Positions 520 to 55,487 of a stretch of 64,000 nucleotides of DNA are shown in pieces. The translations under genes and the position numbers were made by a program. This DNA comes from Seonamhaeicola aphaedonensis. Its GTDB lineage: Bacteria > Bacteroidota > Bacteroidia > Flavobacteriales > Flavobacteriaceae. Each line of letters begins with the position of its first letter. Positions within the stretch are counted from its first letter, which is position 1. Below the pieces are notes generated by a model, which saw only the letters and a program-made list of their open reading frames with translations, did not search any database and was not told where the DNA came from. The stretch is taken from NCBI RefSeq assembly GCF_003386195.1, contig NZ_QRDX01000004.1, positions 186,001-250,000 on the forward strand. The letters run 5' to 3'.

Positions 520-545
520 TGTCATTCCTGCGAAGGCAGGAATCC
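520..545. repeat. Palindromic repeat, ATTCCTGC family (left flank of GIY-YIG unit 1)
   Basis: This is a perfect 8-bp stem, ATTCCTGC and GCAGGAAT around GAAG, preceded by TGTC. It ends one base before the stop codon of the nuclease gene at 547. It is in inverted orientation to the copy at 861-887, so the TGTCA/TGACA tags of the two flanking copies face outward. Confidence 0.85.
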
Positions 546-546
546 A

Positions 547-843
547 TTAATCATTCTGACAAAAAACTCCAATCTTTTGATAAATCATCCCATTTAGGGT
601 TATTTTCCATTGTCGTTTCCACTTTTTCATATTTTTTTCACGCTTAATAGCATCATTCACATATTGATACGTTTCAAAATACACCAATTTATTTAAACTA
701 TATTTTTTAGAGAAACCTTCAAATAGCTTGTTTTTATGTTCAAACATTCTTCTTTCTAAATCATTTGTTACACCAATGTATAATGTTCCATTCTTTTTAT
801 TTGTTAGAATATAGAGATAATATTGATGGATTGTTTTATACAT
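547..843 (-). CDS. Small GIY-YIG nuclease-domain protein (unit 1)
   Basis: This is a 98-residue single-domain GIY-YIG protein. The core is visible near the N-terminus (YYLYILTNK, then LYIGVTNDLERRM), and the AIKREKNMKKW helix supplies the usual glutamate. Proteins of this family cut DNA with one metal-dependent active site; the substrate of these stand-alone versions is unknown. The start is an ATG at 841-843. The intact gene is bracketed by inverted copies of the ATTCCTGC palindrome, 1 bp after its stop and 17 bp before its start, and its 5' end is duplicated at 188-245. It is the only intact GIY-YIG gene of the three near the left half of the window. Confidence 0.85.
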   Translation of the reverse strand: MYKTIHQYYLYILTNKKNGTLYIGVTNDLERRMFEHKNKLFEGFSKKYSLNKLVYFETYQYVNDAIKREKNMKKWKRQWKITLNGMIYQKIGVFCQND

Positions 844-860
844 TTCATTGAGTAAAATGT

Positions 861-926
861 GGATTCCTGCCTTCGCAGGAATGACAGCTAAATTTTGAGC
901 TATATAAAAAGAAGATTAGAGAATAG
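861..926. repeat. Palindromic repeat and degenerate copy of the lptB 3' end
   Basis: Bases 861-887 are the ATTCCTGC palindrome ending in ATGACAG. Bases 889-926 align with the last 38 bases of lptB (135-172) with about 7 mismatches. The two lptB-tail copies therefore bracket the 173-888 segment that contains the GIY-YIG gene and its palindromes. Confidence 0.65.
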
Positions 927-932
927 AATTTT

Positions 933-1829
933 CTATTTTTTAGTTTTACCTCTTTTAAAAATTGGCTTAATTATTTGCATTAAAATTACAGCCATAATAC
1001 CCACCACCAGTCCTACACTAAATTCAATTAAGAAGGAAGGTAAATTTATATTTTCAACTAAATGGTGTACAAATTCAATATGATGCACAAAAACACCACC
1101 AGCAACCAATAGCAATGCAATAGTACCTATAACTGCCAAACTTTTAATAATTAAAGGTAAGGCTCTAATTAAAAAATTTCCAACAGAATGCAAAAAGCCT
1201 TTGCCATTTCCTATTTTAACCAGCTTGTATCCAAAATCATCCATTCTTACCAATAAGGCTACAATACCATAAACCCCTACCGTAGCTATAATACATACGA
1301 TGGTTACTACTAATATTTGATTTAAAAGAGGTTCTTGTAAAACAGTACCTAACGCTATTATTACTATTTCAACAGATAAAATGAAATCAGTAAAAATAGC
1401 CGACTTAATTTTCTTTTTTTCTGAAAGAAGTAGTTCCTCTTTAGTTAAATTGTATTCATTAATAATATCCTCTTTGGGTTCAACTTTCTGTTTTTTATGA
1501 AAAAAATACTCATATATTTTCTCAGCGCCTTCATAAGCTAAATAGATACCACCTAGCACTAGGGCAATAGTGATTGCAATGGGTAAAAAGGCACTTAATA
1601 AAAAGGCAACAGGCAATATGATGATTTTATTAAGAGCAGATCCCTTTGTTATAGCCCAAAGTACAGGCAACTCTCTAGAAGCCACAAAACCTGTTGCTTT
1701 TTCTGCATTTACCGCCAAATCATCACCTAAAATACCAGCCGTTTTTTTTGTTGAAATTTTACTCATTACAACAACATCATCCATGAGTGCTGCAACATCA
1801 TCTAATAATGCAAAAAAACCAGAAGCCAT
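933..1829 (-). CDS. DUF808 family membrane protein (YedI-like)
   Basis: This 298-residue protein begins MASGFFALLDDVAALMDDV, the signature opening of the DUF808/YedI family. Several hydrophobic helices follow (for example residues 68-98, 148-165, 170-196 and 215-250, and a C-terminal pair). The family is an inner-membrane protein of unknown function. It starts 4 bp after pssA on the same strand and is probably co-transcribed with it. Nothing is missing compared with the usual family length of about 300 residues. Confidence 0.85.
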   Translation of the reverse strand: MASGFFALLDDVAALMDDVVVMSKISTKKTAGILGDDLAVNAEKATGFVASRELPVLWAITKGSALNKIIILPVAFLLSAFLPIAITIALVLGGIYLAYEGAEKIYEYFFHKKQKVEPKEDIINEYNLTKEELLLSEKKKIKSAIFTDFILSVEIVIIALGTVLQEPLLNQILVVTIVCIIATVGVYGIVALLVRMDDFGYKLVKIGNGKGFLHSVGNFLIRALPLIIKSLAVIGTIALLLVAGGVFVHHIEFVHHLVENINLPSFLIEFSVGLVVGIMAVILMQIIKPIFKRGKTKK

Positions 1830-1833
1830 ATTT

Positions 1834-2562
1834 TTATTTTGAAGTCATATTGTCAAGAACCGACATGATTATATAAAGTAAAATGATTAAGGGAATAGCT
1901 GCAAACTGAAGCACAATTAATAACACCACACAAAGGATAATAAAAATATACCTAGTAGCATTGGGTTTAAAACCCCAAGTTTTAAACTTTAAAGCGAACA
2001 GCTTGATACCAGAATTTAGTAACCAACAACTTAAGATGGTTACCCCAATTAAAAACCATTTGTTTAAAATCATTGCATTGATGGTATCATTATTTTGAAA
2101 TTCCAGTATTAACGGTAACGATACAATCAATAAGGTATTGGCAGGCGTAGGCAAGCCTTTAAAAAAGTTTTGCTGTTCGGTATCTACATTAAATTTTGCC
2201 AAACGGTAGGCTGAGGCTAAAGTGATTGACAACCCTATACAAGCTAAAGGGGTTACGCCAAATAATATCTGTGAATTATCCCAGCTTCCCAATTCTATTT
2301 CAACTAATTGAAACAATTTATACATGATAATCCCTGGTACTAACCCACTGGTCACAACATCGGCTAATGAATCTAATTGCAGTCCTATCTCACTTTGAAT
2401 ATTTAGTTTTCTAGCAGCAAAACCATCAAAAAAATCGAAAAAGATGCCTAGAAATACAAAAAAAGCCGCCGAAACAAAGTTATCGTTTACAGCAAAAATA
2501 ACCGCAATACTTCCACACAACAAGTTTAATAATGTTAGAGCATTAGGAATATATCGCTTCAT
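1834..2562 (-). CDS. pssA: CDP-diacylglycerol--serine O-phosphatidyltransferase
   Basis: This 242-residue integral membrane enzyme makes phosphatidylserine from CDP-diacylglycerol and serine, the precursor of phosphatidylethanolamine. The CDP-alcohol phosphatidyltransferase motif is complete: D46-G47, A50-R51, G60, D64 and D68, with D43 just before. Six or more hydrophobic segments cover the rest. It lies first in a minus-strand pair with the DUF808 gene. Length and start (ATG, MKRYIPNALTLLNLLCG) agree with Bacteroidota PssA. Confidence 0.92.
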   Translation of the reverse strand: MKRYIPNALTLLNLLCGSIAVIFAVNDNFVSAAFFVFLGIFFDFFDGFAARKLNIQSEIGLQLDSLADVVTSGLVPGIIMYKLFQLVEIELGSWDNSQILFGVTPLACIGLSITLASAYRLAKFNVDTEQQNFFKGLPTPANTLLIVSLPLILEFQNNDTINAMILNKWFLIGVTILSCWLLNSGIKLFALKFKTWGFKPNATRYIFIILCVVLLIVLQFAAIPLIILLYIIMSVLDNMTSK

Positions 2563-2616
2563 ATAGAATTAATTAAAAAGAACACCCCGGCGTCCATACC
2601 GGGATTCCATTACAAC

Positions 2617-2642
2617 TGTCATTGCCGCATAGGCGGGAATCC
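2617..2642. repeat. Palindromic repeat, CCGC variant of the ATTCCTGC family
   Basis: A TGTCATTGCCGC arm is followed by a GGCGGGAATCC arm between the divergent pssA and PorV-like genes. It keeps the TGTCA end and the AATCC end of the family while the stem sequence differs. Confidence 0.6.
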
Positions 2643-2712
2643 AAAATAACAAACAATTCTAATCATATACAACTATTAAACAATATCTGTTATATTTTAC
2701 AGTTTATAGATT

Positions 2713-2720
2713 TATATTTG
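2713..2720 (+). promoter_or_regulatory. Candidate flavobacterial -7 box for the PorV-like gene
   Basis: TATATTTG matches the TAnnTTTG consensus of the Bacteroidota primary sigma factor. No convincing TTG -33 element is seen. It lies only 8 bases before the TTG start at 2729, so the mRNA would be almost leaderless. Confidence 0.5.
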
Positions 2721-2728
2721 TAAAAAAA

Positions 2729-3805
2729 TTGCATTTGCGAGTTTACATAAGCATTTTACTTTGTTTACTATCGGTTTCGTTATTCAGTCAAACCACTAGA
2801 AAATATTCTAATGAGTTCATGAATATAGGTGTTGATGCAGCTGCTTTAGGTATGAGTAGTGCCGTAACATCACATACTGCTGATGTAAATTCTGGGTACT
2901 GGAATCCCGCCGGACTTTTGGCTTTAAAAGACAACCAGTTAGCGCTTATGCACTCCAGTTATTTTGCCAACATTGCCAATTACGATTATGCGGCTTACGC
3001 CATGCCTTTAGATAACCAAAGTGCTATTGGCATTTCATTAATTAGATTTGCGGTTGATGATATTTTAAATACTACTCAACTCATTGATGAACAAGGCAAT
3101 ATCAATTACGATAGAATTAGCCTCTTCTCTACTGCTGATTACGGGCTCACCTTTTCTTATGCCCGAAAATTACCTGTTCAAGGCTTAAATTATGGGGTTA
3201 ACGCTAAAGTAATCCGCAGAATTATTGGAGATTTTGCATCGGCTTGGGGGTTTGGTTTAGATGCCGGCATTCAATTTGAGACTAACAACAGTTGGAAGTT
3301 TGGTATCATGGCGCGCGACATTACCACAACCTTTAATGCTTGGGCCATTGATGAAGGTGAATTTGAAAAAATCAGGGATGCCGTTGAAGGTCAAAACCAG
3401 GAACTCCCCGAAAGCACCGAAATTACCATCCCTAAATTACAAATAGGTGTTTCAAAATTATTAAACTTTAATTATGATTACACACTTCTAGCCGCAGCCA
3501 ATTTAAATGTGCGTTTTGAAGAAAATAACGATATTATTTCAACATCTTTTGCCAGTATAAATCCGGCCTTAGGTTTTGAGTTTGGATATGTAGACATGGT
3601 TTATTTACGCGCTGGTATGGGTAATTTTCAAAATGAACTACAAATAGACAACACAGAGCAATTAACCTTTCAACCAAGTTTTGGGGTTGGTTTTAAATAC
3701 AATGGTATTCAAATAGATTACGCCTTTACAGACATTGGCGACCAAAGTGTGGCACTCTATTCCAACGTATTTTCATTAAAACTAGATTTTAGTATTTTTA
3801 GGTAA
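2729..3805 (+). CDS. PorV/PorQ-family outer-membrane beta-barrel protein (PorV2-like)
   Basis: This 358-residue protein has an N-terminal signal peptide (residues 1-20, ending LFSQ) and then a FadL/PorV-like barrel. The opening NIGVDAAALGMSSAVTS and NSGYWNPAGLLAL is typical of the PorV family linked to the type IX secretion system of Bacteroidota; alternating strands run to a C-terminal FSLKLDFSIFR. I infer an outer-membrane location. The start is TTG, since no ATG precedes the signal peptide. It overlaps the next gene by one base, so the two are almost certainly one transcript. Whether it acts in type IX secretion is not shown by the sequence. Confidence 0.75.
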   Translation: MHLRVYISILLCLLSVSLFSQTTRKYSNEFMNIGVDAAALGMSSAVTSHTADVNSGYWNPAGLLALKDNQLALMHSSYFANIANYDYAAYAMPLDNQSAIGISLIRFAVDDILNTTQLIDEQGNINYDRISLFSTADYGLTFSYARKLPVQGLNYGVNAKVIRRIIGDFASAWGFGLDAGIQFETNNSWKFGIMARDITTTFNAWAIDEGEFEKIRDAVEGQNQELPESTEITIPKLQIGVSKLLNFNYDYTLLAAANLNVRFEENNDIISTSFASINPALGFEFGYVDMVYLRAGMGNFQNELQIDNTEQLTFQPSFGVGFKYNGIQIDYAFTDIGDQSVALYSNVFSLKLDFSIFR

Positions 3806-4974
3806 TGACAAAAAAATTACTACTCTTTTTATTAACGCTGTCATCATTCGTATACGGACAACAATTAACATTGTCAAACACCTCAGAGATTAGTGTATTA
3901 ACCGTTGGACCTGGCACATCTCTTAATGATGCTTTTGGTCATAGTGCCTTCAGAATAAAAGATCCAAATTATGGATTGGATGTAGTTTATGGCTATGGCG
4001 AGTACGATTTTGATGCGCCTAATTTCTATTTAAAATTCGCCCAAGGAAAACTAAACTATCTTATGGGTAAAGATAGTTTTAGTAGGTTTTATCAGATATA
4101 TATATATTTTAATAGAACAATAAAAGAGCAGGTTTTAAATCTATCGCAAAGCGAAAAACAAAAACTTTATGATTATCTAATAACCAATTATAAACCTGAA
4201 AATAGAGCCTATTTATACGAATTCTTTTTTGACAATTGCGCTACCAAAATTAAAGACGTCGTTAAAATAGCCACAGACACCCCTATTGCATTTAACAGTC
4301 CTGAGGGTTTTGAAACCAAAACGTTTAGAAACCTAATTTATGATAATGTTGACAAAAATACCTGGGGAAGCCTTGGTATTGATGTGGCTTTAGGTTCGGT
4401 TATTGACAGAGAAGCAACCCCTGAAGAACACATGTTTTTACCTGAAAACATTTACAAATTCTTTGAAGTTGCCACAAAAAACGATCGTTCTAGATTGGTA
4501 AAGAAAAACAACGTCATTTTTACTAAAAGACCTATTAAAACCTCAAACTCCTTTTTCAAAAGTCCGTTGTGTATTTTAGGAATCATCTCTTTTTTCATAT
4601 TATTCCTTACCTATAAAGACTTCAAAAAAAATAAGAGAACCATTTGGTTAGACGTGTTCTTATTTAGTTTTACCGGAATCATTGGAATACTTATTTTATT
4701 CCTTTGGTTTGCAACCGACCACACAGGCACCCATCATAATTACAATCTACTATGGGCTTTTGCTTTAAATATTTTAATGATTGGACAACTTTCAAAAAAG
4801 ACTCCCCAAAAGTGGTTTACTAAATACGTGAAGTTTTTAATCATTATGCTTTGTCTCATGACATTACATTGGATTATCGGGGTTCAGGTGTTTGCTATTG
4901 CTTTAATTCCTTTGTTAATTGCTTTGGGAATTCGATATTTATTTTTGTTAAAACATTATTCCGATAGCCAATAG
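3805..4974 (+). CDS. DUF4105 domain protein with C-terminal membrane helices
   Basis: This 389-residue protein has a signal peptide (about residues 1-18), a DUF4105 (Lnb N-terminal periplasmic) domain and about five C-terminal transmembrane helices. Family hallmarks are visible: GPGTSLNDAFGHSAFRI (residues 35-51) and FFDNCATKIKDVV (141-153), with the conserved His46 and Cys145. These residues look like a papain/NlpC-type arrangement, but the activity is unproven. It is translationally coupled to the PorV-like gene (ATG overlaps the TAA). Its TAG stop codon lies inside a heptanucleotide tandem repeat. It converges with the minus-strand polysaccharide locus. Confidence 0.8.
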   Translation: MTKKLLLFLLTLSSFVYGQQLTLSNTSEISVLTVGPGTSLNDAFGHSAFRIKDPNYGLDVVYGYGEYDFDAPNFYLKFAQGKLNYLMGKDSFSRFYQIYIYFNRTIKEQVLNLSQSEKQKLYDYLITNYKPENRAYLYEFFFDNCATKIKDVVKIATDTPIAFNSPEGFETKTFRNLIYDNVDKNTWGSLGIDVALGSVIDREATPEEHMFLPENIYKFFEVATKNDRSRLVKKNNVIFTKRPIKTSNSFFKSPLCILGIISFFILFLTYKDFKKNKRTIWLDVFLFSFTGIIGILILFLWFATDHTGTHHNYNLLWAFALNILMIGQLSKKTPQKWFTKYVKFLIIMLCLMTLHWIIGVQVFAIALIPLLIALGIRYLFLLKHYSDSQ

Positions 4975-5000
4975 CCAATAGCCAATAGCCAATAGCCAAT
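4966..5000. repeat. Heptanucleotide tandem repeat (AGCCAAT x5)
   Basis: There are five perfect copies of AGCCAAT. The first copy plus two bases of the second supply the last codons and the TAG stop of the DUF4105 gene, so copy number can change without altering the protein. It sits in the 30-bp gap between two convergent genes. Confidence 0.95.
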
Positions 5001-5004
5001 TTAG

Positions 5005-6396: not shown

Positions 6397-6457
6397 GAGG
6401 ACAACGATTAATAGCAACCACTAATATAAAGTATAATTTTATAATCCCTTACTTAAT

Positions 6458-6640
6458 TTAACGTGAGTTCAACATAAAATTCATAAAAAATAGCCAAAAG
6501 TGAAATAAAACAGGCACTTTGTTACCTTGAGCATTGCTAAGTGAAAATATATTTTCAACGAAAGCACTTTGTGAAACACGTCGGAAGGTGTCTAAATAAC
6601 ACTATTTCAATCAGGTTTCGACGGCGCTCAACCTGACAAC
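6458..6640. repeat. Left arm of a long inverted repeat bracketing the polysaccharide locus
   Basis: About 180 bp here reappear in reverse complement at 46525-46705. The best-conserved core is 6523-6588, which includes the perfect 16-bp palindrome TGAAAATATATTTTCA at 6542-6557. The right part (6612-6640) contains a CAGGTTTCGAC...CTCAACCTG palindrome. The gap 6397-6883 otherwise holds only the two palindromes at 6737-6801. Confidence 0.7.
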
Positions 6641-6736
6641 AGATGTTAATTTGTTTATATTTAATTAAATAAACCACTATGGATTTGAAATCCATAGTTT
6701 TAAACAAAAGAATAAAATTCTTTTTCAACGCTCAAT

Positions 6737-6801
6737 TGTCATTCCGCACTTGATGCGGAATCCAGTTTTATCCATGGATTCCTGCCTTTGCAGGAATGAC
6801 A
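6737..6801. repeat. Pair of inverted palindromes, ATTCCGC and ATTCCTGC types
   Basis: The first (6737-6763) has arms ATTCCGCA and TGCGGAAT after TGTC. The second (6776-6801) has ATTCCTGC and GCAGGAAT before GACA. They are head-to-head with about 13 bp between them, so the TGTCA/TGACA tags face outward, as around GIY-YIG unit 1 but with no gene between. Confidence 0.85.
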
Positions 6802-6883
6802 AATCGATTGAAAAAAGTTTATAGAAACTAAAGTAACTGCAACCTTTAATTAGATAATAAATTAAGATGATATCGAACTCCCT

Positions 6884-7894: not shown

Positions 7895-7931
7895 TTGGTA
7901 AAAATACAAGAATTAATATTCAAAAATGATG

Positions 7932-11769: not shown

Positions 11770-11844
11770 GGAAATTAAGAAGATGCTGAAACATGTTGAG
11801 CACGACATGTGAGTGAGGTGAAAATATCGATACTTATATTGATT
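11770..11844. repeat. Degenerate member of the CTGAAAC-GTTCAG palindrome family
   Basis: A decayed AGATGCTGAAACATGTTGAG arm is followed by CACGACATGTGAG in the gap between a GT4 gene and the GIY-YIG pseudogene. The arms no longer pair fully. Confidence 0.45.
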
Positions 11845-11845
11845 G

Positions 11846-12167
11846 TCACCCTGAACTCGTTTCAGGGTCTAATGGTATCCATAGATTATCCCAATTAGGG
11901 TTTATACTTTCAATTAAGTTGATTTTCCATTGTCTATGCCAATTCTTCAATTGCTTTTCCCGTTTTATGGCATCATCAATAAATTGAAACTCTTCATAAT
12001 ACACAAGCATTTTTAATTTATATTTACTTGAAAAAAGAACTTCCTTTAGCCTCAACATGCCTTTCCATTCTATCATCAATCCCTCCTGTTACACCAATGT
12101 ACAAAACACCTTTTGGTTTATTGGTAATTATATAGACCCAATAGTTGTGATAAGCTCGTTTTGGCAT
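11846..12167 (-). pseudogene. Frameshifted GIY-YIG nuclease gene (unit 2)
   Basis: The 5' part (ATG at 12167) reads MPKRAYHNYWVYIITNKPKG and then VLYIGVTGGIDDRMERHVEAKG. The 3' part, in another frame, reads SSKYKLKMLVYYEEFQF and DDAIKREKQLKNWHRQWKIN. The frames join at a run of six A (12031-12036); removing one base restores a continuous GIY-YIG protein of about 105 residues. The last eight or so codons (LDPETSSG) are encoded by the left flanking palindrome. Both flanks are the CTGAAAC-GTTCAG family in inverted orientation. A sequencing error in the homopolymer is an alternative explanation. Confidence 0.75.
11847..11876. repeat. CTGAA family palindrome inside the 3' end of GIY-YIG unit 2
   Basis: A TGTCACCCTGAAC arm pairs with GTTTCAGGGTCT across a short loop. 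It is the inverted partner of the copy at 12199-12232. Confidence 0.7.
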
Positions 12168-12780
12168 GTAAGTAAATTTGCTTAAATAAATATACTGAAA
12201 TTAAGAAGATGCTGAAACAAGTTCAGCATGACAAAAACCATGTTCATTCAGAACGAGCACAGCAAAGTGAAGAATCTCTTTTAAAACCTTAAAAAAGCCT
12301 CTTAATAAAAGTATTGGAAATTAAGAAGATACTGAAACAAGTTCGGCATGACAAAAACCATGTTCATTCAAAACCTTTCTATTCTGTTAAGGACAGGCTA
12401 TCATTATATAACAATTCTCCAACATTAGCATTAATATTTTGACATGCCTTTAACAGCAACTAGACTGGGCTTAGATAGGGCTTAGATAGGGAGGAGCTAT
12501 TAAATAGTTTGCTTTTAAAGTAAAGAAATTGTTACGTCATCCCGATATCTATCGGGACTCTTCACAATGACGTATATTTGCTTTGAGCCATCATTCTGAG
12601 TGAGGTACGAACGTAAGAATCTGTTGAATGAATTGACCAATCTTATTTAACTTGTGCCATTAAACAAAAGATTGTTAATTCACTTCGTTTCTCACAATGA
12701 CGGTATGTTTACCCTGCGCCGTCATTCTGAGTGAGGCACGAGCGTAAGAATCTTTTTAAAAACTCGTCTAAATTTTATTT
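12168..12780. repeat. Repeat-filled gap between two GIY-YIG pseudogenes
   Basis: There is no gene here. Bases 12196-12253 and 12315-12373 are two direct copies of a 58-bp segment carrying AGATGCTGAAACAAGTTCAG then CATGACA. Bases 12471-12491 hold two copies of a GGGCTTAGATA unit. Bases 12534-12573 hold a CCCGATA-TATCGGG hairpin ending in CAATGACG. Bases 12585-12630 and 12668-12757 are AGATT...TTACG family elements. The 12668-12757 element is a head-to-head pair: AAGATTGTTAA...CTCACAATGACGG, then CGTCATTCTGAGTGAGG...TAAGAATCTT. Confidence 0.75.
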
Positions 12781-13079
12781 ATGGAACAATCATACGTTTA
12801 CATTATCACGAATAAAACAATACTGTTTTGTATACTGGAGTTACAAGTAATTTGACAAAACGTATGTATCAACATAAGTCCAAAACTTTTAAAGGTTTTG
12901 CGGCCAAATACAACTGCGAAAAATTAGTCTATTTTGAAGCTTTTGACTCCATTAATAGTGCTATTGAAAGAGAAAAACAGATTAAAAACTATAAACGTTA
13001 TAAAAAGATTTACTTGATTGAGAAAGAAAATCCAAACTGGATAGACATGTCTGATGGATGGCTATTTTATTTTGATTAG
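12781..13079 (+). pseudogene. Frameshifted GIY-YIG nuclease gene (unit 3)
   Basis: From the ATG at 12781 the frame reads MEQSYVYIITNK and then goes wrong. In the next frame NTVLYTGVTSNLTKRMYQHK continues through FAAKYNCEKLVYFEAFDS and AIEREKQIKNYKRYKK to a stop at 13079. One extra base in the A-run at 12814-12817 would join the two into a normal GIY-YIG protein of about 99 residues. It is flanked by direct copies of a 90-bp head-to-head palindrome pair (12668-12757 and 13088-13180). A homopolymer sequencing error would also explain it. Confidence 0.75.
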
Positions 13080-13087: not shown

Positions 13088-13180
13088 AGAAAAGATTGCT
13101 ACGTCACTGCGTTCCTCACAATGACGGTTTGTTTACCCTGCGCTGTTATTCTGAACGAGGTACAAGCATAAGAATCTTTT
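13088..13180. repeat. Head-to-head palindrome pair, right flank of GIY-YIG unit 3
   Basis: AAAGATTGCTACGTCA ... CTCACAATGACGG is followed by a spacer and GTTATTCTGAACGAGG ... AAGAATCTTTT. It is a direct copy of 12668-12757, with the same spacer phrase GTTTACCCTGCGC. The two halves are diverged inverted copies of one family, so the whole can fold into a roughly 90-bp hairpin. Confidence 0.8.
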
Positions 13181-20614: not shown

Positions 20615-20671
20615 GCTCCCCTCTTGAGCAAAGCGGGGCGTCCACACTCTAGGTGTGGACGGAGTGTTTGA
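20615..20671. repeat. Palindromic repeat, left flank of the DUF559 gene
   Basis: GCTCCCCTCTTGAGCAAAGC GGGG is followed by a perfect 7-bp stem, GTCCACA and TGTGGAC. It is nearly identical to 21135-21191 on the other side of the DUF559 gene. The gap to the gene start is 22 bp. Confidence 0.85.
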
Positions 20672-20693: not shown

Positions 20694-21071
20694 ATGCCAA
20701 AACAAAAACTCCATACAAAAAAGGAACTTCAAGAAAAAAGAAAAGAACTTAGAAAAAACCTAACACCTGCTGAAGCCTTTTTATGGAAACATTTAAAAGC
20801 CCGACAACTAAATGGCAAACGTTTCACAAAACAGCATAGTATTGATAATTATATTGTAGATTTTTATTGTGCTTCAGAACGATTGATTATTGAATTGGAT
20901 GGTGAAGTCCATAATAACCCAATAGCGCAAGAATATGATTTAAAACGTACGACGTTTTTAGAATCATTAAACTATAAAGTAATACGGTTTGAAAACAAAA
21001 TGGTTTTTGAGAATTTAGCTTCTGTGCTACAGGAAATCGTTTTACATTTTAAATCAGAACCCTCCGTCTGA
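20694..21071 (+). CDS. DUF559 (Vsr-like) endonuclease domain protein
   Basis: This 125-residue protein belongs to the DUF559 family, a PD-(D/E)xK fold related to the very-short-patch repair endonuclease. It shows LTPAEAFLWKHLKARQLNG, then YIVDFYCASERLIIELDGE with Asp56, Glu67, Asp69 and His73, and D82/R85. It lies on the plus strand inside the minus-strand polysaccharide locus. Its last five codons (SEPSV, stop) are part of the palindromic repeat at 21058-21116. Both flanks are repeats of related families. I infer a mobile or repeat-linked nuclease rather than a glycan gene. Confidence 0.88.
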   Translation: MPKQKLHTKKELQEKRKELRKNLTPAEAFLWKHLKARQLNGKRFTKQHSIDNYIVDFYCASERLIIELDGEVHNNPIAQEYDLKRTTFLESLNYKVIRFENKMVFENLASVLQEIVLHFKSEPSV

Positions 21072-21289
21072 ATACTTTTAGTATTCAGCCACCTCCCTTA
21101 AACTTAAGGGAGGAGCACCATGTAAAAACAAAAAGCTCCCCTCTTGAGCAAAGCGGGGTGGCCACACTCTAGGTGTGGACGGGGCGTTTGATTGTAACCT
21201 CAAGAGCGTTTAGGAATTTGAATATCTAACCCTCTGTCTAAATGCTTTACTGCATTTAGCCACCTCCCTTTAACAAAAGGGAGAAGCTT
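21058..21289. repeat. Array of three palindromic repeats after the DUF559 gene
   Basis: Bases 21058-21116 carry two perfect hairpins: CTGAATAC/GTATTCAG and a 10-bp CCTCCCTTAA stem. Bases 21135-21191 repeat the left-flank element (GTCCACA/TGTGGAC). Bases 21226-21289 are a variant of the first with CTAAATGC/GCATTTAG and CCTCCCTT/AAGGGAG(A)AG. The paired changes in the stems keep base pairing. Confidence 0.88.
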
Positions 21290-47120: not shown

Positions 47121-47122
47121 AT

Positions 47123-47993: not shown

Positions 47994-48066
47994 CGGTTGT
48001 GTTAACTATAGCATTTAGACTATGTATCACGATAAAGTTTCTTATATTTAAGAAGCGATGTGTGTT

Positions 48067-48098
48067 GAAAACCGTTAAACTTGTTTTAACGGTTTTTA
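48067..48098 (+). terminator. Intrinsic terminator after the isolated gene
   Basis: AAAACCGTTAAA and TTTAACGGTTTT form a 12-bp stem with a short loop, followed by TATT. It lies about 75 bp after the stop codon at 47993. Confidence 0.8.
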
Positions 48099-48119
48099 TT
48101 CTACTATTAGCATGTTGTT

Positions 48120-49108: not shown

Positions 49109-49112
49109 GGGG

Positions 49113-51584
49113 TTATAGTTTCTTAATAAACCGCTTTGCTTTCCCAAATAAAGAGCTGTCTTGTTTTTCATGATAGGTCTCGCCATAAACTCCATAGCCG
49201 TAACCATAACCGTAACCATAGCCATAACCATAATTTTGATTGGTTTTATGTTTATAAAAGTTTAACACAAAACTGATATTTTTTAACTCGCCTTTTCTAT
49301 ATTTCGTGTTCACTAATTGTAACATGCCCTTTTTTGTATAGTCTAAACGTACCACAAATAAGGTCGCATCGGCATAATTAGATAGCTCTAAAGCATCAGT
49401 CACCAAACCTAGTGGTGGCGTGTCTAAAACAATGATATCATAAGTTTGACGTAAAGCAGCAACAAGTTCCTGTAATTTTCCTCCCATTAACAATTCGGAT
49501 GGATTGGGTGGTATAGGACCGGAAGTCACCACACTTAAGTTATCGATATGGGTTTTTTTTACTAACGCTTCAAATTGACTGTCTCCAATTAAGTAATTAA
49601 CCATTCCCTTGTCGTTATTTAAATCAAAATCATTAAAGATTTTGGGCTTTCGTAAATCCAAGCCCAGTAAAATAGTTTTTTTACCAGACAGAGCATAAGC
49701 CGTAGCAATGTTAATAGAACAAAAAGTTTTCCCTTCACCACTCACCGAAGAGGTGACCATAAGCGTTCTACCACCCTCCTTATCATTTTTCTTGTAAAAG
49801 AATTGTAAACTCGACCGAATGGAGCGAAAGGATTCGGCTACCGCCGATTTGGGTTTTTCAAAAACTACTAAATTATTGTGATATCTGTATTTTCCAATCA
49901 AACCTAAAATAGGGATGTTAGACAAACGTTCTACCTCATCGGAGCCATGAATGGTGGTATCTAATAAAAACACCACAAAAACAAGTACTAAAGGCGCAAA
50001 AAAACCAACCATGAGCGCCATCATATAATTCAAACTTTTATTAGGACCTATGGGAGGATTACCAATGTCTTTAGCCTCATCAATCATAGATATATCAGAG
50101 ACATTAGCAGCCTTCACTATAGCCGCCTCACTACGCTTTGCCAAATACACATTATAAGCCTCCTGACTTAAATCCAGTTTCCGTTGAATTTTTAAAAACT
50201 GTTGCTGATCCTCTGGTAAATTATTCAATTTAGATTCCAATTTGGCAATTTGATTATTTATGGAATTCAACTGAATACTAACCGTACTTTTAGTACCCCT
50301 AATAATTTCAAACAGCACATTTTTTTCAGCATCAATCCGATTATCCAATTCTTTGAACAAACTAGAGCCCTCTTTAGTGGTGGCTTCTAAATTTTGTCGC
50401 TCAATAGCCAAATTGGTCAACTTGCTCACACTTGCCAAAATATTAGATTCTTCAATCCCTACAGACGTTGGTGCCGCTATTTCTGTGTAATTTGTTTTAG
50501 TTCTGAGATAGGTTTCTAATACATCAAGATACTTTATCTTGTTATTTACTGCTTCCTTTTCTTTATCTAAACCCTTTAGTTTTGAAGACACTTCCTGTAA
50601 TTCTTCATCGACATCGAAGACCTTACTTTGCCTTCTAAAATCATTCATTTCTTCATTTACAGATTTTAAGTCTAAATTAACAGCGGCCAAACTACTATCA
50701 ATAAACTTGATGGTATTGGTAGCATATTGGTTTTTATGTTCTAATTCTGTTTTACTCAGAATCGCTACGGTAGCATTTAAGTAGTCTACTATTTTCCCTT
50801 TATTAGTTCCATTCATGTAAAGCCTTAACACCGAAGAAGTGTTACTACTGGGAGACGCCTTTACTACATTCTTATACTGATTAACGATTCCATCGAAATC
50901 CAAAAATTGCACATAATACTCCGATTGGGGTGTAATAGATGCTAAACTTCTTTTATGTAATGTAAAATTTGCAAATGATAATGTTACCTTATCCCCAATT
51001 TTATATGTTTTTTTAAAATTACCTTTGGGTATAGATACCCTTTCTTTTCTCTTATCAGAATAAATTTGCCCTGTACCATACTCGCTTTCAGACGTCATAA
51101 AGATTTCAAATTGTTCTTCATCTAAAAATCGAATTCCTATATACTTACCTAAAACTTGTGGATTAGACTTGTCTATTTCTAAATAGAAAGGAGCGCTCTT
51201 GTATACGTCTACCATTCTATATTTTCCTTGTATCATGTAACGCGTATAATACTGCAAAGAATCTACTACCTTTTCGTTATGTCGTCTAGTACCTAAGGTA
51301 GTGATTACTTTACCCACTTTACCGGACACCCCGCCCCAGTTAAAAGAGATACTGGTATTAGCAGTAAAAAAAGGGTTTTGGTCATTCTCAATAGAAACCA
51401 AAGCCCCTAAACGGTAGATATTTTCCTTGCGAACATTAATAGAATACGCTATTACTAAAGCGATACCAATACTTAAAACTATAAATTTCCAATGGTGTAA
51501 GACTTTAAATAAAAAGCCTTTAAAATCAAAGGTCATTCCTTTGCTTTCAACATGATCTAAATCTTCAAATTCGTTATAAGACAT
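49113..51584 (-). CDS. wzc: Polysaccharide co-polymerase and tyrosine autokinase (Wzc-like)
   Basis: This 823-residue inner-membrane protein controls chain length and export. N-terminal helix 34-49, a long periplasmic coiled-coil region (about 290-500) and a second helix (521-541) form the Wzz part. The cytoplasmic BY-kinase has Walker A SSVSGEGKT (612-620), Walker A' LLGLDLRKPKIF (639-650) and Walker B DIIVLDTPP (716-724). The C-terminus has seven YG pairs (785-798), then VYGETY, giving nine closely spaced tyrosines for autophosphorylation. It follows wza by 3 bp. The YG tract is encoded by a 6-bp-type tandem repeat. Confidence 0.95.
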   Translation of the reverse strand: MSYNEFEDLDHVESKGMTFDFKGFLFKVLHHWKFIVLSIGIALVIAYSINVRKENIYRLGALVSIENDQNPFFTANTSISFNWGGVSGKVGKVITTLGTRRHNEKVVDSLQYYTRYMIQGKYRMVDVYKSAPFYLEIDKSNPQVLGKYIGIRFLDEEQFEIFMTSESEYGTGQIYSDKRKERVSIPKGNFKKTYKIGDKVTLSFANFTLHKRSLASITPQSEYYVQFLDFDGIVNQYKNVVKASPSSNTSSVLRLYMNGTNKGKIVDYLNATVAILSKTELEHKNQYATNTIKFIDSSLAAVNLDLKSVNEEMNDFRRQSKVFDVDEELQEVSSKLKGLDKEKEAVNNKIKYLDVLETYLRTKTNYTEIAAPTSVGIEESNILASVSKLTNLAIERQNLEATTKEGSSLFKELDNRIDAEKNVLFEIIRGTKSTVSIQLNSINNQIAKLESKLNNLPEDQQQFLKIQRKLDLSQEAYNVYLAKRSEAAIVKAANVSDISMIDEAKDIGNPPIGPNKSLNYMMALMVGFFAPLVLVFVVFLLDTTIHGSDEVERLSNIPILGLIGKYRYHNNLVVFEKPKSAVAESFRSIRSSLQFFYKKNDKEGGRTLMVTSSVSGEGKTFCSINIATAYALSGKKTILLGLDLRKPKIFNDFDLNNDKGMVNYLIGDSQFEALVKKTHIDNLSVVTSGPIPPNPSELLMGGKLQELVAALRQTYDIIVLDTPPLGLVTDALELSNYADATLFVVRLDYTKKGMLQLVNTKYRKGELKNISFVLNFYKHKTNQNYGYGYGYGYGYGYGVYGETYHEKQDSSLFGKAKRFIKKL

Positions 51585-51587
51585 GAG

Positions 51588-52379
51588 TTATATGCGTTGA
51601 AAAACCAAAATAGTCGTAGTGATTAATGATAAAACGGTAGCAACCGCTCCAATATTTTGAAGTACATTGGTACCCGTACCCCAAGACTTTTGCTTTAAAG
51701 GCTTGACATAAATCATATCATTGGGCTGAATGTAGTAATAGGGAGAGTTCATGACATTAACATGGGTTAAATCGATATGGTGGATTTTTTGCCCTTCAGG
51801 GTATTGCCTTATAATCAACACATCTTTCTTATTACCTACATCAGTGATGTCTCCAGCATTCGCAATGGCTTCAAATATGTTAACACGTTCCTGATAAATG
51901 GTTTGCATGCCACTACCAATTTCACCATAGGTCGTATAACGTAGCCCCGTAAGTTTCACCGTTACAAAAATATTGGCGGTTTCCTTGAACTGGTCTGCTA
52001 ACAATTTGTCTGTGATAAGGGTTTCTATTTCTGTAGCCGTATACCCCAACACGTTCATGTCGCCTAATTCGGGGATTCTAATATTACCATGCAAATCTAC
52101 TGTAAAGCCATCAAAATAGGCCCGTTCTGCACCACTGGCGTTTAGATTGCCTATTCCAATGGGATTAAATATTTGCACATTATCCTGATCGGTTACTTTT
52201 ATGCGAATATTCAAAATATCATTGATTTGTACCCTGTAGGGTTTTTGCTGCTCTACAATTTTTTGAATGGAATCTGTTGCCTGAGATTTATTTTGAAGAT
52301 ATACCGTGTCTTTATATGGAATACAGGAAAAAAATGCTGTATTAATCACAACTAAAACAAGAAAAAACGTTCTCTTCAT
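51588..52379 (-). CDS. wza: Polysaccharide export outer-membrane lipoprotein (Wza-like)
   Basis: This 263-residue lipoprotein has a signal peptide MKRTFFLVLVVINTAFFSC with Cys19 as the lipidated residue. The export domain begins YRVQINDILNIRIKV, and SLBB-like segments follow (TVKLTGLRYTTYGEIGSGM, VNIFEAIANAGDITDVG, and VMNSPYYYIQPNDMIYV). A C-terminal helix (VLQNIGAVATVLSLITTTIL) may cross the outer membrane. ATG at 52379 is preferred to a TTG six codons upstream because it yields a proper lipoprotein signal. It is first in the wza-wzc operon. Confidence 0.93.
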   Translation of the reverse strand: MKRTFFLVLVVINTAFFSCIPYKDTVYLQNKSQATDSIQKIVEQQKPYRVQINDILNIRIKVTDQDNVQIFNPIGIGNLNASGAERAYFDGFTVDLHGNIRIPELGDMNVLGYTATEIETLITDKLLADQFKETANIFVTVKLTGLRYTTYGEIGSGMQTIYQERVNIFEAIANAGDITDVGNKKDVLIIRQYPEGQKIHHIDLTHVNVMNSPYYYIQPNDMIYVKPLKQKSWGTGTNVLQNIGAVATVLSLITTTILVFQRI

Positions 52380-52401
52380 ATTGAGGCAAGTTGACAAAAA
52401 A

Positions 52402-52409
52402 CAAATCTA
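52402..52409 (-). promoter_or_regulatory. Candidate -7 box of the wza-wzc operon
   Basis: Read on the minus strand this is TAGATTTG, a match to TAnnTTTG, 22 bases before the wza ATG. A -33 TTG at the expected spacing is not seen. Confidence 0.5.
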
Positions 52410-52466
52410 CATATTTTTTTTGTTTTTAAGCACCCTACATTATTCCTATTCATGCCCTAAACTCTT

Positions 52467-52526
52467 AAGCTCCTCCCTTTGGTCAAAGGGAGGTGGCTAA
52501 ATGCTTTAGCATTTAGACGGTGGGTT
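52467..52526. repeat. Single copy of the CTAAATGC / CCTCCCTT double hairpin
   Basis: In reverse complement it carries CTAAATGC/GCATTTAG and CCTCCCTTT/AAAGGGAGG, the family found around the DUF559 gene 30 kb away. It stands alone here, without a nuclease gene. Confidence 0.85.
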
Positions 52527-52568
52527 TAAATCAAATATATTTGCATTGCAAGTACCTTGCGAAGCAAG

Positions 52569-52928
52569 TAGCGAAGTGAATAATACTTGACAAACGCCTT
52601 TCGCATTGTCACCCTGAATTCTTTGTACTTAGCGGAATCAAAGTATAGTTCAGGGTCTATGTCTATGCTAACCAGTCTTTGTTGTTAGATGCTGAAATGA
52701 ATTCAGCATGACAAAACTAGATTAATTTGTCTTTCAGACAGCAAAACTACGAAACATAAGAATCCTATTGTCATTCAGACACTGAGAGTAACGAAGTGAA
52801 TAATACTTGACACCCCCTTTCGCATTGTCACCCTGAATTCTTGTACTGAGCGGAGTCGAAGTATGGTTCAGGGTCTATGTACATGAGTCTTCTTTAGATG
52901 CTGAAACTAGTTCAGCATGACACGACAA
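52569..52928. repeat. Two direct copies of a 140-150 bp block with nested palindromes
   Basis: Copies at 52569-52718 and 52790-52928 share GAAGTGAATAATACTTGACA at the start. Each contains ACCCTGAA ... TTCAGGGT arms that enclose a TGAGCGGAGTCGAAGTA insert, followed by an AGATGCTGAAA/TTCAGCATGACA palindrome. The gap 52380-53080 holds no gene. Confidence 0.85.
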
Positions 52929-53080
52929 GGGGATCTGTATAGGTGAATTAAGCTTGAATATAATAGTTAACTTACTTTTCTGCCCCGGGAATAATCTCGA
53001 CGCCTCACAAACACTCATCTAGTTAAACAAAAAAATGAATATATCCCCATTTTATCCCATATTTGCAAAAAAGCATTCTT

Positions 53081-54943
53081 TTGAACTACTTAACAGTTGA
53101 AAACATATCAAAATCGTACGGTGAACTGGTTCTTTTTGAAGACTTATCCTTTAGTGTTCATAAAGACCAAAAAATAGCCTTTGTAGCTAAAAATGGTACC
53201 GGAAAAACCTCTATATTAAACATTCTTTCGGGTGATGATGAAGCGGACTCTGGTAATATTATTTACCGAAAAGGGATCAAAGTTTCTTTTTTATCACAAG
53301 ATCCGAAATTCGATAATAACCTGACGGTTGAAGAAACCATTTTTGCCAGTGACAATCCTATATTAAAAATAATTCATACTTACGAAAAAGCGCTTTTAAA
53401 TCCTGAAGACACCGATACGTACCAAAAGGCTTTTGAAGCTATGGAACAACATCAAGCTTGGGATTTTGAAACACAATACAAACAGATTCTTTTTAAACTA
53501 AAACTTGAAGATCTCAATCAGAAAGTAGGGTTATTGTCTGGCGGACAAAAAAAGCGTTTGGCACTAGCTAATGCTTTAATAAATAAACCAGATTTATTGA
53601 TTCTGGATGAGCCTACTAACCATTTAGACTTGGAAATGATTGAGTGGTTGGAAGCTTTTTTTGCTAAGGAGAACATCACACTGTTTATGGTAACGCACGA
53701 TCGTTACTTTTTAGAGCGTGTTTGCAATGAGATTATAGAGTTAGATGAAGGACAACTCTACAGCTATAAGGGCAACTATTCATACTACCTTGAAAAGCGA
53801 GACGCCAGAATAGAACGAGAAGCTGTAGAAACAAACAAAGCCAAACAATTATTTAAAACGGAATTAGAATGGATGCGCAGGCAGCCCAAAGCGCGCACCA
53901 CAAAATCAAAATCTAGGATAGATGATTTCTTTGAAATAAAACACCGAGCGCATCAGCGTAGAAAAGATTATCAAGTTCAGCTTGAAATTAATATGGAGCG
54001 TTTGGGGAGCAAGATCATGGAGTTCCATAATGTATCAAAATCTTTCAAAGACAAAGTTATTTTAAAAGGATTTGACTATACTTTTAAAAAAGGGGAACGT
54101 GTTGGCATCATTGGGAAAAACGGCACTGGCAAAACGACCTTTTTAAATATTTTAACCCAAACCACAAAACCTGATGGCGGTAAAGTGGTTAAAGGTGATA
54201 CGGTTAAATTTGGTTACTACACCCAAAGTGGCATTACCATAAAACCAGAGCAGAAAGTTATTGATGTTATCAGAGAGTTTGGGGATTATATCCCTTTAAA
54301 AAAAGGAAGACAGATAAGTGCACAACAATTACTGGAACGTTTTTTATTCAGTAGAAAAAAACAATATGATTTTGTTGAAAAGCTAAGTGGTGGTGAACGC
54401 AAACGCCTGTATTTATGCACGGTTTTAATCCAAAATCCCAACTTTTTAATTTTGGATGAACCTACTAACGACTTAGATATTGTTACCCTTAATGTCCTTG
54501 AAAGTTTCTTGTTAGACTTTCCAGGCTGTATAATTGTGGTATCCCACGACCGCTATTTTATGGATAAAGTGGTGGATCATCTGTTTGTGTTTAAAGGCGA
54601 AGGTGTGATTGAAGATTTCCCTGGCAATTATACCGACTATCGGGTTTATGAGGATAGTCAGCCGGTTATTTCTAAAGCTACGGAAGATAAAAAGGAACAT
54701 ACTTCATGGAAACAAAACGAGGCTTCTAAACTGTCTTTCAACGAAGAAAAAGAACTTAGAAACATTGAAAGTAAACTCAAATCTTTAGCCTACGATAAAA
54801 AACAATTGGAAGATAAGTTTCTTAATCCTGATTTGTCTCAGGAGGACATTAATCAATTATCGGAAGAACTTCAAGACATTATTAATACCATTGAAGCTAA
54901 AGAAGAACGTTGGTTTGAGTTATCGGAAAAATTGGAAGGCTGA
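53081..54943 (+). CDS. uup: ABC-F family ATPase (Uup-like)
   Basis: This 620-residue soluble protein has two ABC domains. The first has AKNGTGKT (36-43), LSGGQKKRLALANAL and LLILDEPTNHLDLEM. The second has IGKNGTGKTTFLNIL, LSGGERKRLYLCTVL and LILDEPTNDLDIVT. A linker with RQPKARTTKSKSRID lies between them, and a C-terminal coiled coil (ELRNIESKLKSLAYDKKQLE) is the Uup-type CTD. ABC-F proteins act on ribosomes or on DNA rather than in transport. I chose TTG at 53081 (MNYLTVENISKSYGE), the family's normal N-terminus, over a TTG at 53063 that would lie inside a CATATTTG promoter-like box. Confidence 0.9.
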   Translation: MNYLTVENISKSYGELVLFEDLSFSVHKDQKIAFVAKNGTGKTSILNILSGDDEADSGNIIYRKGIKVSFLSQDPKFDNNLTVEETIFASDNPILKIIHTYEKALLNPEDTDTYQKAFEAMEQHQAWDFETQYKQILFKLKLEDLNQKVGLLSGGQKKRLALANALINKPDLLILDEPTNHLDLEMIEWLEAFFAKENITLFMVTHDRYFLERVCNEIIELDEGQLYSYKGNYSYYLEKRDARIEREAVETNKAKQLFKTELEWMRRQPKARTTKSKSRIDDFFEIKHRAHQRRKDYQVQLEINMERLGSKIMEFHNVSKSFKDKVILKGFDYTFKKGERVGIIGKNGTGKTTFLNILTQTTKPDGGKVVKGDTVKFGYYTQSGITIKPEQKVIDVIREFGDYIPLKKGRQISAQQLLERFLFSRKKQYDFVEKLSGGERKRLYLCTVLIQNPNFLILDEPTNDLDIVTLNVLESFLLDFPGCIIVVSHDRYFMDKVVDHLFVFKGEGVIEDFPGNYTDYRVYEDSQPVISKATEDKKEHTSWKQNEASKLSFNEEKELRNIESKLKSLAYDKKQLEDKFLNPDLSQEDINQLSEELQDIINTIEAKEERWFELSEKLEG

Positions 54944-54951
54944 CTTCTCGA

Positions 54952-55055
54952 TACATCCCGATATTCAATCGGGACACTCGAAGTGACCAACCTAACAATA
55001 CTAATGTCAGTTCGAGTGAAATTCTGAAGGATGAAGAATTTTGTATCGAGAACAA
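54952..55055. repeat. Long hairpin repeat, TCTCGATAC family (left flank of GIY-YIG unit 4)
   Basis: Outer arms TTCTCGATACA and TTGTATCGAGAA, and inner arms ACTCGAAGTGACC and GTCAGTTCGAGTG, fold into one hairpin of about 105 bp. A small CCCGATAT/AATCGGG hairpin sits within the left half. It is a direct copy of 55371-55487. Confidence 0.9.
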
Positions 55056-55070
55056 CTTAAAAGCATGCAA

Positions 55071-55361
55071 ATGAAAATATATTACGTTTACATTCTTAAG
55101 TGTTCCGACAAAACATTTTACACGGGCATTACATCAAACTTAACCAAACGTATTATGGATCATAAAACAGGTAAACACACAAGCAGTTACACTTATAAAC
55201 GGAGACCAGTAACCTTACAGTTTTATGCTCAATTTACAAATGTTGAACTAGCTATCTCTACTGAAAAACAGATTAAAAAATGGTCTAGAGCAAAAAAACT
55301 GGCTCTTATTAATAATGATTTTGAAAAGCTGCCTAACTTAGCCAAAAAAACCTTTAAATAA
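55071..55361 (+). CDS. Small GIY-YIG nuclease-domain protein (unit 4)
   Basis: This 96-residue protein belongs to the GIY-YIG family: MKIYYVYILKCSDKTFYTG, then ITSNLTKRIMDHKTGKHTSS, SYTYKRRPVTLQFYAQF and AISTEKQIKKWSRAKK, with catalytic Tyr, Arg and Glu in the expected places. ATG 55071 or 55065 is the start; a longer frame from the TTG at 55041 would read into the flanking hairpin. It is intact and lies between direct copies of the TCTCGATAC hairpin, 16 bp before and 10 bp after. It is the most complete unit of this kind in the window. Confidence 0.87.
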   Translation: MKIYYVYILKCSDKTFYTGITSNLTKRIMDHKTGKHTSSYTYKRRPVTLQFYAQFTNVELAISTEKQIKKWSRAKKLALINNDFEKLPNLAKKTFK

Positions 55362-55370
55362 GGAGTAAAC

Positions 55371-55487
55371 TTCTCGATACATCCCGATATTAAATCGGGA
55401 CACTCGAAGTGACAACTTAAATTTGTCTTTTATGTCAGTTCGAGTGAAATTCTGAAGTATGAAGCATTTTGTATCGAGAACAACTGA
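55371..55487. repeat. Long hairpin repeat, TCTCGATAC family (right flank of GIY-YIG unit 4)
   Basis: It has the same outer (TTCTCGATACA/TTGTATCGAGAA) and inner (ACTCGAAGTGACA/GTCAGTTCGAGTG) arms as 54952-55055. It ends six bases before the ATG of the methyltransferase gene, so it must lie in that gene's leader. Confidence 0.9.

Follow-up and report, generated by a model that had tools for sequence, protein, structure and literature searches.

Small nuclease genes bracketed by cognate repeats in Seonamhaeicola aphaedonensis: candidate mobile elements in two nuclease families

Why should five small nuclease genes within one stretch of bacterial DNA each lie between copies of a different repeat family? 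The question is raised by a window of 64,000 nucleotides from Seonamhaeicola aphaedonensis (contig NZ_QRDX01000004.1; G000:C4:186001-250000 in our genome set; host genome, 3.5 Mb), which contains five units, U1 to U5, each consisting of a single small nuclease gene bracketed by one repeat family. Four of the genes encode GIY-YIG nucleases and one a DUF559 nuclease. We argue, with a probability of roughly 0.65, that the units, each ~0.4–0.5 kb long, are tiny mobile elements in which a stand-alone nuclease gene sits between copies of its cognate repetitive extragenic palindromic (REP) sequence. Comparisons within and between genomes show the pairing of gene and repeat, the unit boundaries, presence and absence at orthologous sites, replacement of one pair by another, and dispersed solo repeats of the same families.

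Five units in the window

The units and their repeats are listed below by window coordinate and strand, with repeats located by pattern search and examined by folding.

184–281, minus strand: truncated, partial second copy of U1 (5′ end of the gene and a repeat at 254–280), 95% identical to 789–887
520–546, plus strand: U1 repeat, TGTC-ATTCCTGC-GAAG-GCAGGAAT-CCA
547–843, minus strand: U1 GIY-YIG nuclease, 98 amino acids (aa), intact (Pfam PF01541, E 1.6e-15)
860–886, minus strand: U1 repeat, exact reverse complement of 520–546
11844–11870, plus strand: U2 repeat, TGTCACCCTGAACTCGTTTCAGGGTCT
11846–12167, minus strand: U2 GIY-YIG nuclease gene, broken (internal stops; partial Pfam match)
12207–12233, minus strand: U2 repeat of the family of 11844–11870, with compensatory stem changes
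12720–12753, plus strand: U3 repeat, CGTCATTCTGAG..GTAAGAATCT, without a hairpin on folding
12781–13079, plus strand: U3 GIY-YIG nuclease gene (Pfam), broken close to its start and open from 12828
13093–13126, minus strand: U3 repeat, CGTCATTGTGAGGAACG..AGCAATCT
20615–20671, plus strand: U5 double-hairpin repeat, CTCCCCTC..GGGG followed by a second hairpin and GACGGAG
20694–21071, plus strand: U5 DUF559 (Vsr-like) nuclease, 125 aa, intact (Pfam PF04480, E 2.9e-35)
21057–21116, minus strand: U5 double-hairpin repeat, inverted, overlapping the stop codon of the U5 gene
54945–55052, no single strand: U4 double repeat, TTCTCGATAC..CACTCGAAGTGAC (plus strand) facing GTCAGTTCGAGTG..GTATCGAGAA
55071–55361, plus strand: U4 GIY-YIG nuclease, intact, 96 aa from ATG or 106 aa from TTG at 55041 (PF01541, E 8.6e-15)
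55371–55480, no single strand: U4 double repeat, second copy

The first-pass annotation of this DNA, made from the letters alone, had described five small nuclease genes lying directly between repeats, with related families on both flanks of a unit and different families from unit to unit; the coordinates, the Pfam matches and the repeat patterns all agree with it. Its account does not include the breakage of U2 and U3, whose genes contain stops within the match and changes of frame; those of U1, U4 and U5 are intact, and U1 adjoins its own truncated duplicate, repeat included. The close spacing between gene and repeat, given there as 0–45 bp, holds with its minimum of 0 bp and a maximum of 39 bp, and the genes of U2 and U5 terminate within a repeat. 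The flanks had also been called palindromic. DNA hairpins at a z score of −3.4 or beyond form in eight of the 11 repeats folded (U1, −5.3 and −4.0; U2, −3.7 and −3.6; U4 outer arms, −3.5 and −3.8; U5, −3.8 and −5.5), and folding is weak in the right U3 repeat (z, −2.0) and in the single inner U4 arm tested (z, −0.3). Because of these two and of the left U3 repeat, which lacks a hairpin, the word 'palindrome' does not fit every copy. A terminal RTGACR tag, claimed for four of the five units, is present in U1–U4.

All five units end in inverted repeats, as inverted pairs in U1, U2 and U5, as related inverted copies in U3 and as head-to-head doublets on either side in U4. The repeats are asymmetric, with GTCA at one end in U1–U4 and with the tag of gene-adjacent copies facing away from the gene. 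The U5 repeat combines a CTCC hairpin, a second hairpin and a second purine arm, and has no GTCA-type tag. Between the two U2 repeats, stem changes compensate one another (CCCTGAA/TTCAGGG versus TGCTGAA/TTCAGCA). Both copies of the U1 repeat have the defining features of CGTC-type REPs (a CGTC/TGTC tag, a stem of 8–9 bp starting AT, a loop of 4–5 nt and a CCA tail); the U2 repeat fits in part (stem start, AC; tail, CTA), and those of U3, U4 and U5 do not fit. The GTAG tag that characterizes REPtrons is found on none of the window repeats, which carry GTCA (U1–U4) or CTCC arms (U5).

A Pfam scan of the units returned GIY-YIG, DUF559 and related nuclease models only, with no HUH tyrosine transposase or other transposase among the matches. 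U1 matches weak homing-endonuclease models in addition to PF01541, and the DUF559 family profile matches PDB 3hrl (E 7.8e-33) and the mobile intron protein PDB 3r3p (E 2.2e-4). Among the best 80 of 564 DUF559 relatives in named genomes, the closest to the U5 protein come from the Flavobacteriaceae Hanstruepera marina and Winogradskyella arenosi (72%). Searches against PHROGs and PADLOC yielded weak generic nuclease matches, and none for U3 and U4, and a phage or defence gene was rejected as an explanation.

Flanks as similar as these are rare in the host genome. We scored 376 called genes in 464 kb, comprising the window and 20 stretches (400 kb) of one other contig, C1, and found the five nuclease genes at ranks 1, 2, 3, 5 and 6 for flank-to-flank similarity; the gene at rank 4 adjoins U5, and the U5 repeats are common to both. 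Gene calls in the flank-similarity, hairpin and free-flank comparisons are longest open reading frame (ORF) guesses. The 376-gene ranking and the control sets of 500 and 400 genes used below are unmatched for free flanks; the sets of 166 and 39 genes are matched. When the ranking is restricted to the 39 genes that have 100 bp or more without called ORFs on either flank, U3, U5 and U2 take ranks 1, 2 and 4, with U1 and U4 outside this subset. Six repeat patterns occur in 2–15 copies per 464 kb, with none in one dinucleotide-matched random sequence, and 41 of the 42 copies lie outside ORFs of 150 aa or more. The window is rich in repeats relative to the 400 kb sampled from C1.

Two further loci of this genome contain GIY-YIG genes in other settings. 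On contig C7 (L009, G000:C7:153802-156894), a U1-type repeat is followed, after a few hundred bases, by a longer GIY-YIG-matching protein (256-aa frame). On contig C11 (L003, G000:C11, ~900–1920), a different small GIY-YIG gene occurs in repeated copies, each beside a tRNA-like remnant, before an intact tRNA-Val gene, and is linked to tRNA rather than to a palindrome.

Pairing of nuclease and repeat across genomes

Relatives of the nucleases were sought in 199 family genomes, one per genus, and are present in 130 (U1), 127 (U4) and 68 (U5) of them. Flanks were compared at 79 of 90 loci, the remainder being long ORFs or having less than 200 bp on one side. Similarity of the left flank to the inverted right flank reached the 99% point of a cross-clade null in 21/28 U1, 24/28 U4 and 11/23 U5 relatives, compared with 0/76 for outer control windows placed 600–800 bp further out.

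The repeat family of GIY-YIG units tracks the nuclease clade across genera. From 79 loci read, we kept 76 units (29 U1-like, 29 U4 and 18 U3-like); one set of 30 loci contributed 19, and the 11 omitted were places already within the U1 set. Cross-genus pairs with a normalised protein similarity below 0.4 seldom have a flank repeat in common (4, 0 and 1% of 211, 1,104 and 191 pairs; 1,506 in total), and the share rises to 7% of 472 pairs at 0.4–0.5, 24% of 259 at 0.5–0.6, 83% of 541 at 0.6–0.8 and 96% of 54 at 0.8 or above. The corresponding Mantel r is 0.66 (0/2,000 permutations) and stays at 0.55 (0/2,000) when the U4 clade is excluded, leaving 47 units. Within single genomes, by comparison, none of the 18 pairs of units has a common repeat, not even one pair with a protein similarity of 0.76. 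Since same-genome units share none while sharing rises with protein similarity, the repeat follows the nuclease and not the host.

Repeats of these families are also dispersed beyond the units. The U4 core CACTCGAASTGAC occurs in 29 of the 30 genomes with a close U4 nuclease, defined as those with a fetched U4 locus (median, 11 copies), and in 56 of the 169 others (median, 0; Fisher p = 1.5e-11). In most U4-clade genomes, repeats outnumber the nuclease gene. Of the nearest tags, 85 face outward and 31 inward. One genome, G174, has 16 GIY-YIG matches, several of them clustered on contig C31 in what looks like local amplification.

DUF559 units with repeats extend across bacteria. The best 80 of 564 relatives from the scan of named genomes, which are therefore not a random sample, fall in Bacteroidota, Acidobacteria, Cyanobacteria, Candidatus Moranbacteria and Doudnabacteria, Chloroflexi, Akkermansiaceae and Desulfobacterales. 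Flank similarity was computed for 75 of these loci, 66 of them stand-alone, and exceeded the 99% points of controls in 33/66 stand-alone units, compared with 8/500 genes and 6/166 genes with free flanks. Polypyrimidine hairpins of at least 6 bp adjoin at least one side of 90 of the 94 DUF559 units kept for this test (12/76 GIY-YIG units, 18/400 control genes and 18/166 free-flank genes) and both sides of 55 (1/76, 2/400 and 1/166, respectively). At 30 loci inspected, the recurrent form is a hairpin CCCCTCC..GGAGGGG with a second GGGG(T)GG arm, frequently with another hairpin between them; a few, such as L193 and L197, have a one-sided form. DUF559 repeat similarity also rises with protein similarity (Mantel r = 0.41, 0/2,000), in a comparison that lacks a same-genome control for host phylogeny. 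Chance was ruled out as an explanation by the own-genome ranks, the family-wide flank similarity, and the DUF559 flank and hairpin comparisons with controls.

Empty, relocated and intragenic units

Six congeners were compared at the window sites. An empty U4 site is seen in G202, G199 and G201, where the same two neighbouring genes are separated, from stop to start, by 4, 22 and 50 bp, respectively. In G200, the site is occupied by another GIY-YIG gene, with 66% DNA identity across 218 bp, that lies between repeats of a different family, and in G203 and G204 it contains no nuclease. Short tandem repeats, GAAGACGGAAGACC-like and ACTGAATA-like, lie between the same two genes in these last two genomes (L321, L324). 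At the U1 site, window positions 172 and 891 are directly joined in G200, and a BLAST search found no match to the unit at its site in any of the six. The U2/U3 interval of G200 has another GIY-YIG gene and a repeat resembling a U3-family variant (GTCATTCAGAG..GAAGAATCTC versus GTCATTCTGAG..GTAAGAATCT). The U5 site of the same genome is without DUF559, and a DUF559 unit bracketed by CTCC repeats is found ~30 kb away.

Copies at other places reveal the extent of the units. Relocated copies of U1 (in G202) and U2 (in G202, G203 and G200) align to window positions 516–887, 11843–12243, 11836–12234 and 11843–12237, and their similarity ends within ~10 bp of the outer repeat edges; the match of a U1-like gene in G200 and a U3-like gene in G203 is restricted to the gene. 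For the U2 copy of G202, the same neighbours are separated in the window genome by ~3 kb of other DNA, leaving no clean reciprocal empty site, so this copy shows only non-synteny. Outside the congener comparison, G013 has a duplication of ~1 kb that includes nuclease and repeats. The two copies of this nuclease-containing duplication are 95% identical, and tandem repeats with a period of ~180 bp adjoin the U4-type nuclease at the same locus (L089, G013:C15).

Taken together, the empty sites, relocated units and pair replacement among congeners support the joint spread of gene and repeats. The first-pass annotation had proposed cognate nuclease–repeat pairs that spread together, and the three sequence checks that it suggested came out in favour of this idea: palindromes are enriched beside DUF559 genes, repeat family follows nuclease clade, and filled and empty sites exist between congeneric species.

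Some DUF559 units are located in frame inside core genes or at their ends. In LeuRS, the domain lies between NWIG[KR]SxGAxV and xVFTTRPDT, in MetH between B12-binding_2 and B12-binding, and in RecG between DEAD and Helicase_C. In the terminal cases it is N-terminal in HemD and in a PALP enzyme read as IlvA, and C-terminal in HisD (Pfam scans covered five RecG proteins, four each of MetH and HemD, and one each of LeuRS, HisD and the PALP enzyme). No intein domain was found in a Pfam scan of 16 fused proteins. Rfam gave no intron at gathering scores, either in the window or at nine loci where DUF559 is intragenic or terminal, and a group I intron or intein was rejected on these grounds. Among leuS genes from 30 chosen genomes, 13 are filled (141–211 aa), 15 have a linker of 8–18 aa, one has 26 aa and one was not resolved; half of the genomes were picked for DUF559 in a long frame, and 13 to 15 is no frequency. 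The leuS gene of the window genome is empty. In G061 (L131), the short linker is formed by an in-frame GIY-type repeat, GACACCCTGAGCGCAGTCGAAGGGTCTC, so that both repeat classes enter one leuS spot.

The intragenic units have palindromes of their own. Across 27 intragenic or terminal cases, including 12 of the 13 filled leuS genes, pyrimidine-arm palindromes of at least 5 bp occur at both ends in 22 and at one or more ends in all 27, compared with 3 of 112 control windows from the same ORFs; at 6 bp, the counts are 16/27, 23/27 and 1/112. By eye, the two end palindromes in leuS vary together between genera. A quick tree places the recG, metH and hemD domains in one clade each and joins recG, metH, hisD and leuS in one clade (support, 0.92), with the first three nested inside leuS. 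Because of this nesting, one DUF559 lineage seems to have moved between core genes, a tentative conclusion given midpoint rooting and 103 short sequences. Downstream of one metH bearing a DUF559 unit lies a Flavo-1 RNA (RF01705; L342, 4392–4474).

Mobility, alternatives and known systems

If the units are mobile elements, a plausible course of events would begin with the nuclease recognizing its own repeat, most likely folded into a hairpin where DNA becomes single-stranded during replication or uptake, and nicking or cutting it, after which the repeat-flanked segment would be copied or pasted by host recombination or repair. Solo repeats would be non-autonomous derivatives. Two unrelated nuclease types would act in this way, GIY-YIG enzymes, whose repeats mostly bear a GTCA tag, and Vsr-like DUF559 enzymes, which are paired with CTCC double hairpins. 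Some DUF559 elements would reside in frame in or at the end of core genes, their repeats forming part of the reading frame. Kin of both nuclease types are found among homing endonucleases, which makes such a cut-and-copy scheme plausible; in it, cutting of its own repeat by the nuclease would drive spread. A broader proposal, to which we give slightly less than even credence, is that Vsr-like DUF559 nucleases form a bacteria-wide second class that mobilizes its own CTCC double hairpins without a transposase, with one lineage hopping in frame between leuS, recG, metH and hisD and surviving as an unspliced host domain, and that GIY-YIG nucleases with CGTC-type REPs are a parallel class supplying the missing enzyme.

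Several points weigh against mobility of this kind. Its support comes from sequence comparison. GIY-YIG and Vsr-like enzymes cut, but neither is known to join strands, and insertion would therefore depend on a hypothetical contribution by the host. By eye, target duplications were not recognized at U4 or leuS, where spacers are too diverged. No cognate repeat is present at the empty U4 sites or in 14 plain short leuS linkers, which argues against simple homing into a resident repeat. The U4 core is also abundant in some genomes without a close nuclease, namely G179 (84 copies; best U4 match, only 48%), G195 (32 copies) and G131 (27 copies; 56%), as well as G070 and G093 (18 and 10 copies), which have no U4 match at E 0.001. 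Repeats can therefore outlive or miss their nuclease, and, conversely, the exact core is absent from one U4-clade genome, G031. Half of the stand-alone DUF559 units from named genomes (33/66) fall below the flank-similarity mark, just 55 of 94 have hairpins on both sides, the left U3 repeat folds to no hairpin (z, +1.3), and the leuS genes of G113 and G002 contain a weaker DUF559-like match without palindromes.

The nuclease might instead serve its host, acting on the dispersed repeat as a mark and tuning DNA uptake or recombination, in which case the pairing would be functional and not selfish. Such a role would be consistent with dispersed repeats that outnumber the gene and with the many invariant residues across nine diverse DUF559 proteins. 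A 2025 report on Ssn of Neisseria reportedly describes a small GIY-YIG nuclease specific for a cognate dispersed short repeat, NTS, with homologs differing in specificity, and Ssn is said to be linked to natural transformation. We nevertheless consider a host-serving role unlikely, given that two of the four GIY-YIG units here are broken, that units are gained and lost between congeners while several different pairs coexist per genome, and that DUF559 units lie within leuS, metH and recG. Alternatively, the repeat clusters could be insertion hot spots or recombination arms that carry small nuclease genes as passive cargo, a view that fits the repeat-rich window and the occupation of one site by different units in different species. 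It conflicts with repeat families that track nuclease clade rather than host, with empty U4 sites that have no repeats, and with the rarity of matched flanks at ordinary genes, with or without free flanks; we rejected it as very improbable, chiefly because no same-genome pair shares a repeat.

That the repeats act as transcription terminators or as 3′ hairpins of mRNAs, flanking short genes by accident, is hardly credible: most of them do form hairpins and adjoin stop codons, but copies lie both upstream and downstream, have clade-specific sequence, are rare at other genes by the same measures and are also present within open reading frames. A further candidate is a transposase acting in trans, either a REP-associated tyrosine transposase (RAYT) or another HUH enzyme, which would move the repeats with the nuclease genes as accessories. 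According to passages of PMC3733652, it has been hypothesised that GTAG REPs are moved by RAYTs, and genes for tyrosine transposases occur in many CGTC-positive species, but none of those transposase genes is flanked by CGTC repeats. In the units described here, it is the nuclease that sits between the repeats, with clade-specific pairing, and we regard a transposase in trans as quite improbable, although the genomes were not searched for RAYTs.

Mobile nuclease–repeat units thus remain our preferred reading, and they share features with several known systems. Like Ssn as it has reportedly been described, the GIY-YIG units encode a small stand-alone PF01541 protein (U1, 98 aa; U4, 96–106 aa) with a cognate repeat both beside the gene and dispersed, a likeness by description. 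Unlike Ssn, the units here relocate, with empty sites and pair replacement, several pairs occur per genome, and a second, unrelated nuclease family has the same arrangement. If Ssn is as reportedly described, the GIY-YIG half is a further example, with new evidence of mobility and replacement, and the earlier statement that no such system had been described fails for that half. For DUF559 the statement stands: among publications judged by their titles and abstract openings, we found none that pairs DUF559 or small GIY-YIG genes with repeats. The DUF559–repeat pairing may accordingly be new, and the intragenic units possibly a further novelty.

Bacterial genomes widely contain short palindromic repeats, whose origin would be explained by a partner nuclease for each family. 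The many natural repeat families of both nuclease types open their specificity to study from sequence. The DUF559 arm, if true, would be a new repeat–nuclease class, and the in-frame units of leuS, metH and recG, if true, unusual mobile DNA tolerated in core proteins.

Homing endonucleases resemble the units in their related nuclease domains, presence or absence at orthologous sites and insertion in conserved genes; they differ in that no intron or intein is recognized here, the units' own repeats travel with the gene, and empty sites have no repeat. Terminal inverted repeats are shared with insertion sequences, the transposase is not. Rickettsia palindromic elements (RPE) are palindromes inserted in frame within protein-coding genes, and differ from DUF559 units, which have a nuclease domain between two palindromes. 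RPE are among the elements named in passages of PMC3733652. In Caulobacter, the DUF559 protein VsrA is described as a Vsr-like PD-(D/E)XK nuclease tied to mismatch repair and a methyltransferase, and, unlike the window DUF559, it comes without mention of repeats in the passages on VsrA (PMC12907096).

The closest parallels in architecture come from REP sequences. Passages of the 2013 survey identify the Neisseria dRS3 repeat as a CGTC-1 REP, the type to which the U1 repeat also belongs (TGTC tag, 8-bp stem beginning AT, 4-nt loop and CCA tail), and report no dedicated transposase for CGTC-type REPs; unlike those REPs as surveyed, the repeats here have a GIY-YIG nuclease gene between them (PMC3733652). 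The first-pass annotation had likened the units to RAYT–REP pairs with nucleases, and the likeness is architectural: in common with RAYT–REP systems and REPINs (PMC3733652; see also PMC3116915), they have a REP-bracketed gene, repeat-specific genes, dispersed solo REPs and head-to-head doublets. The units differ in having GIY-YIG or DUF559 in place of the HUH transposase, and GTCA or CTCC in place of GTAG. The joint gain and loss of gene and repeats between related species suggests mobile elements built on plain nucleases rather than on transposases.

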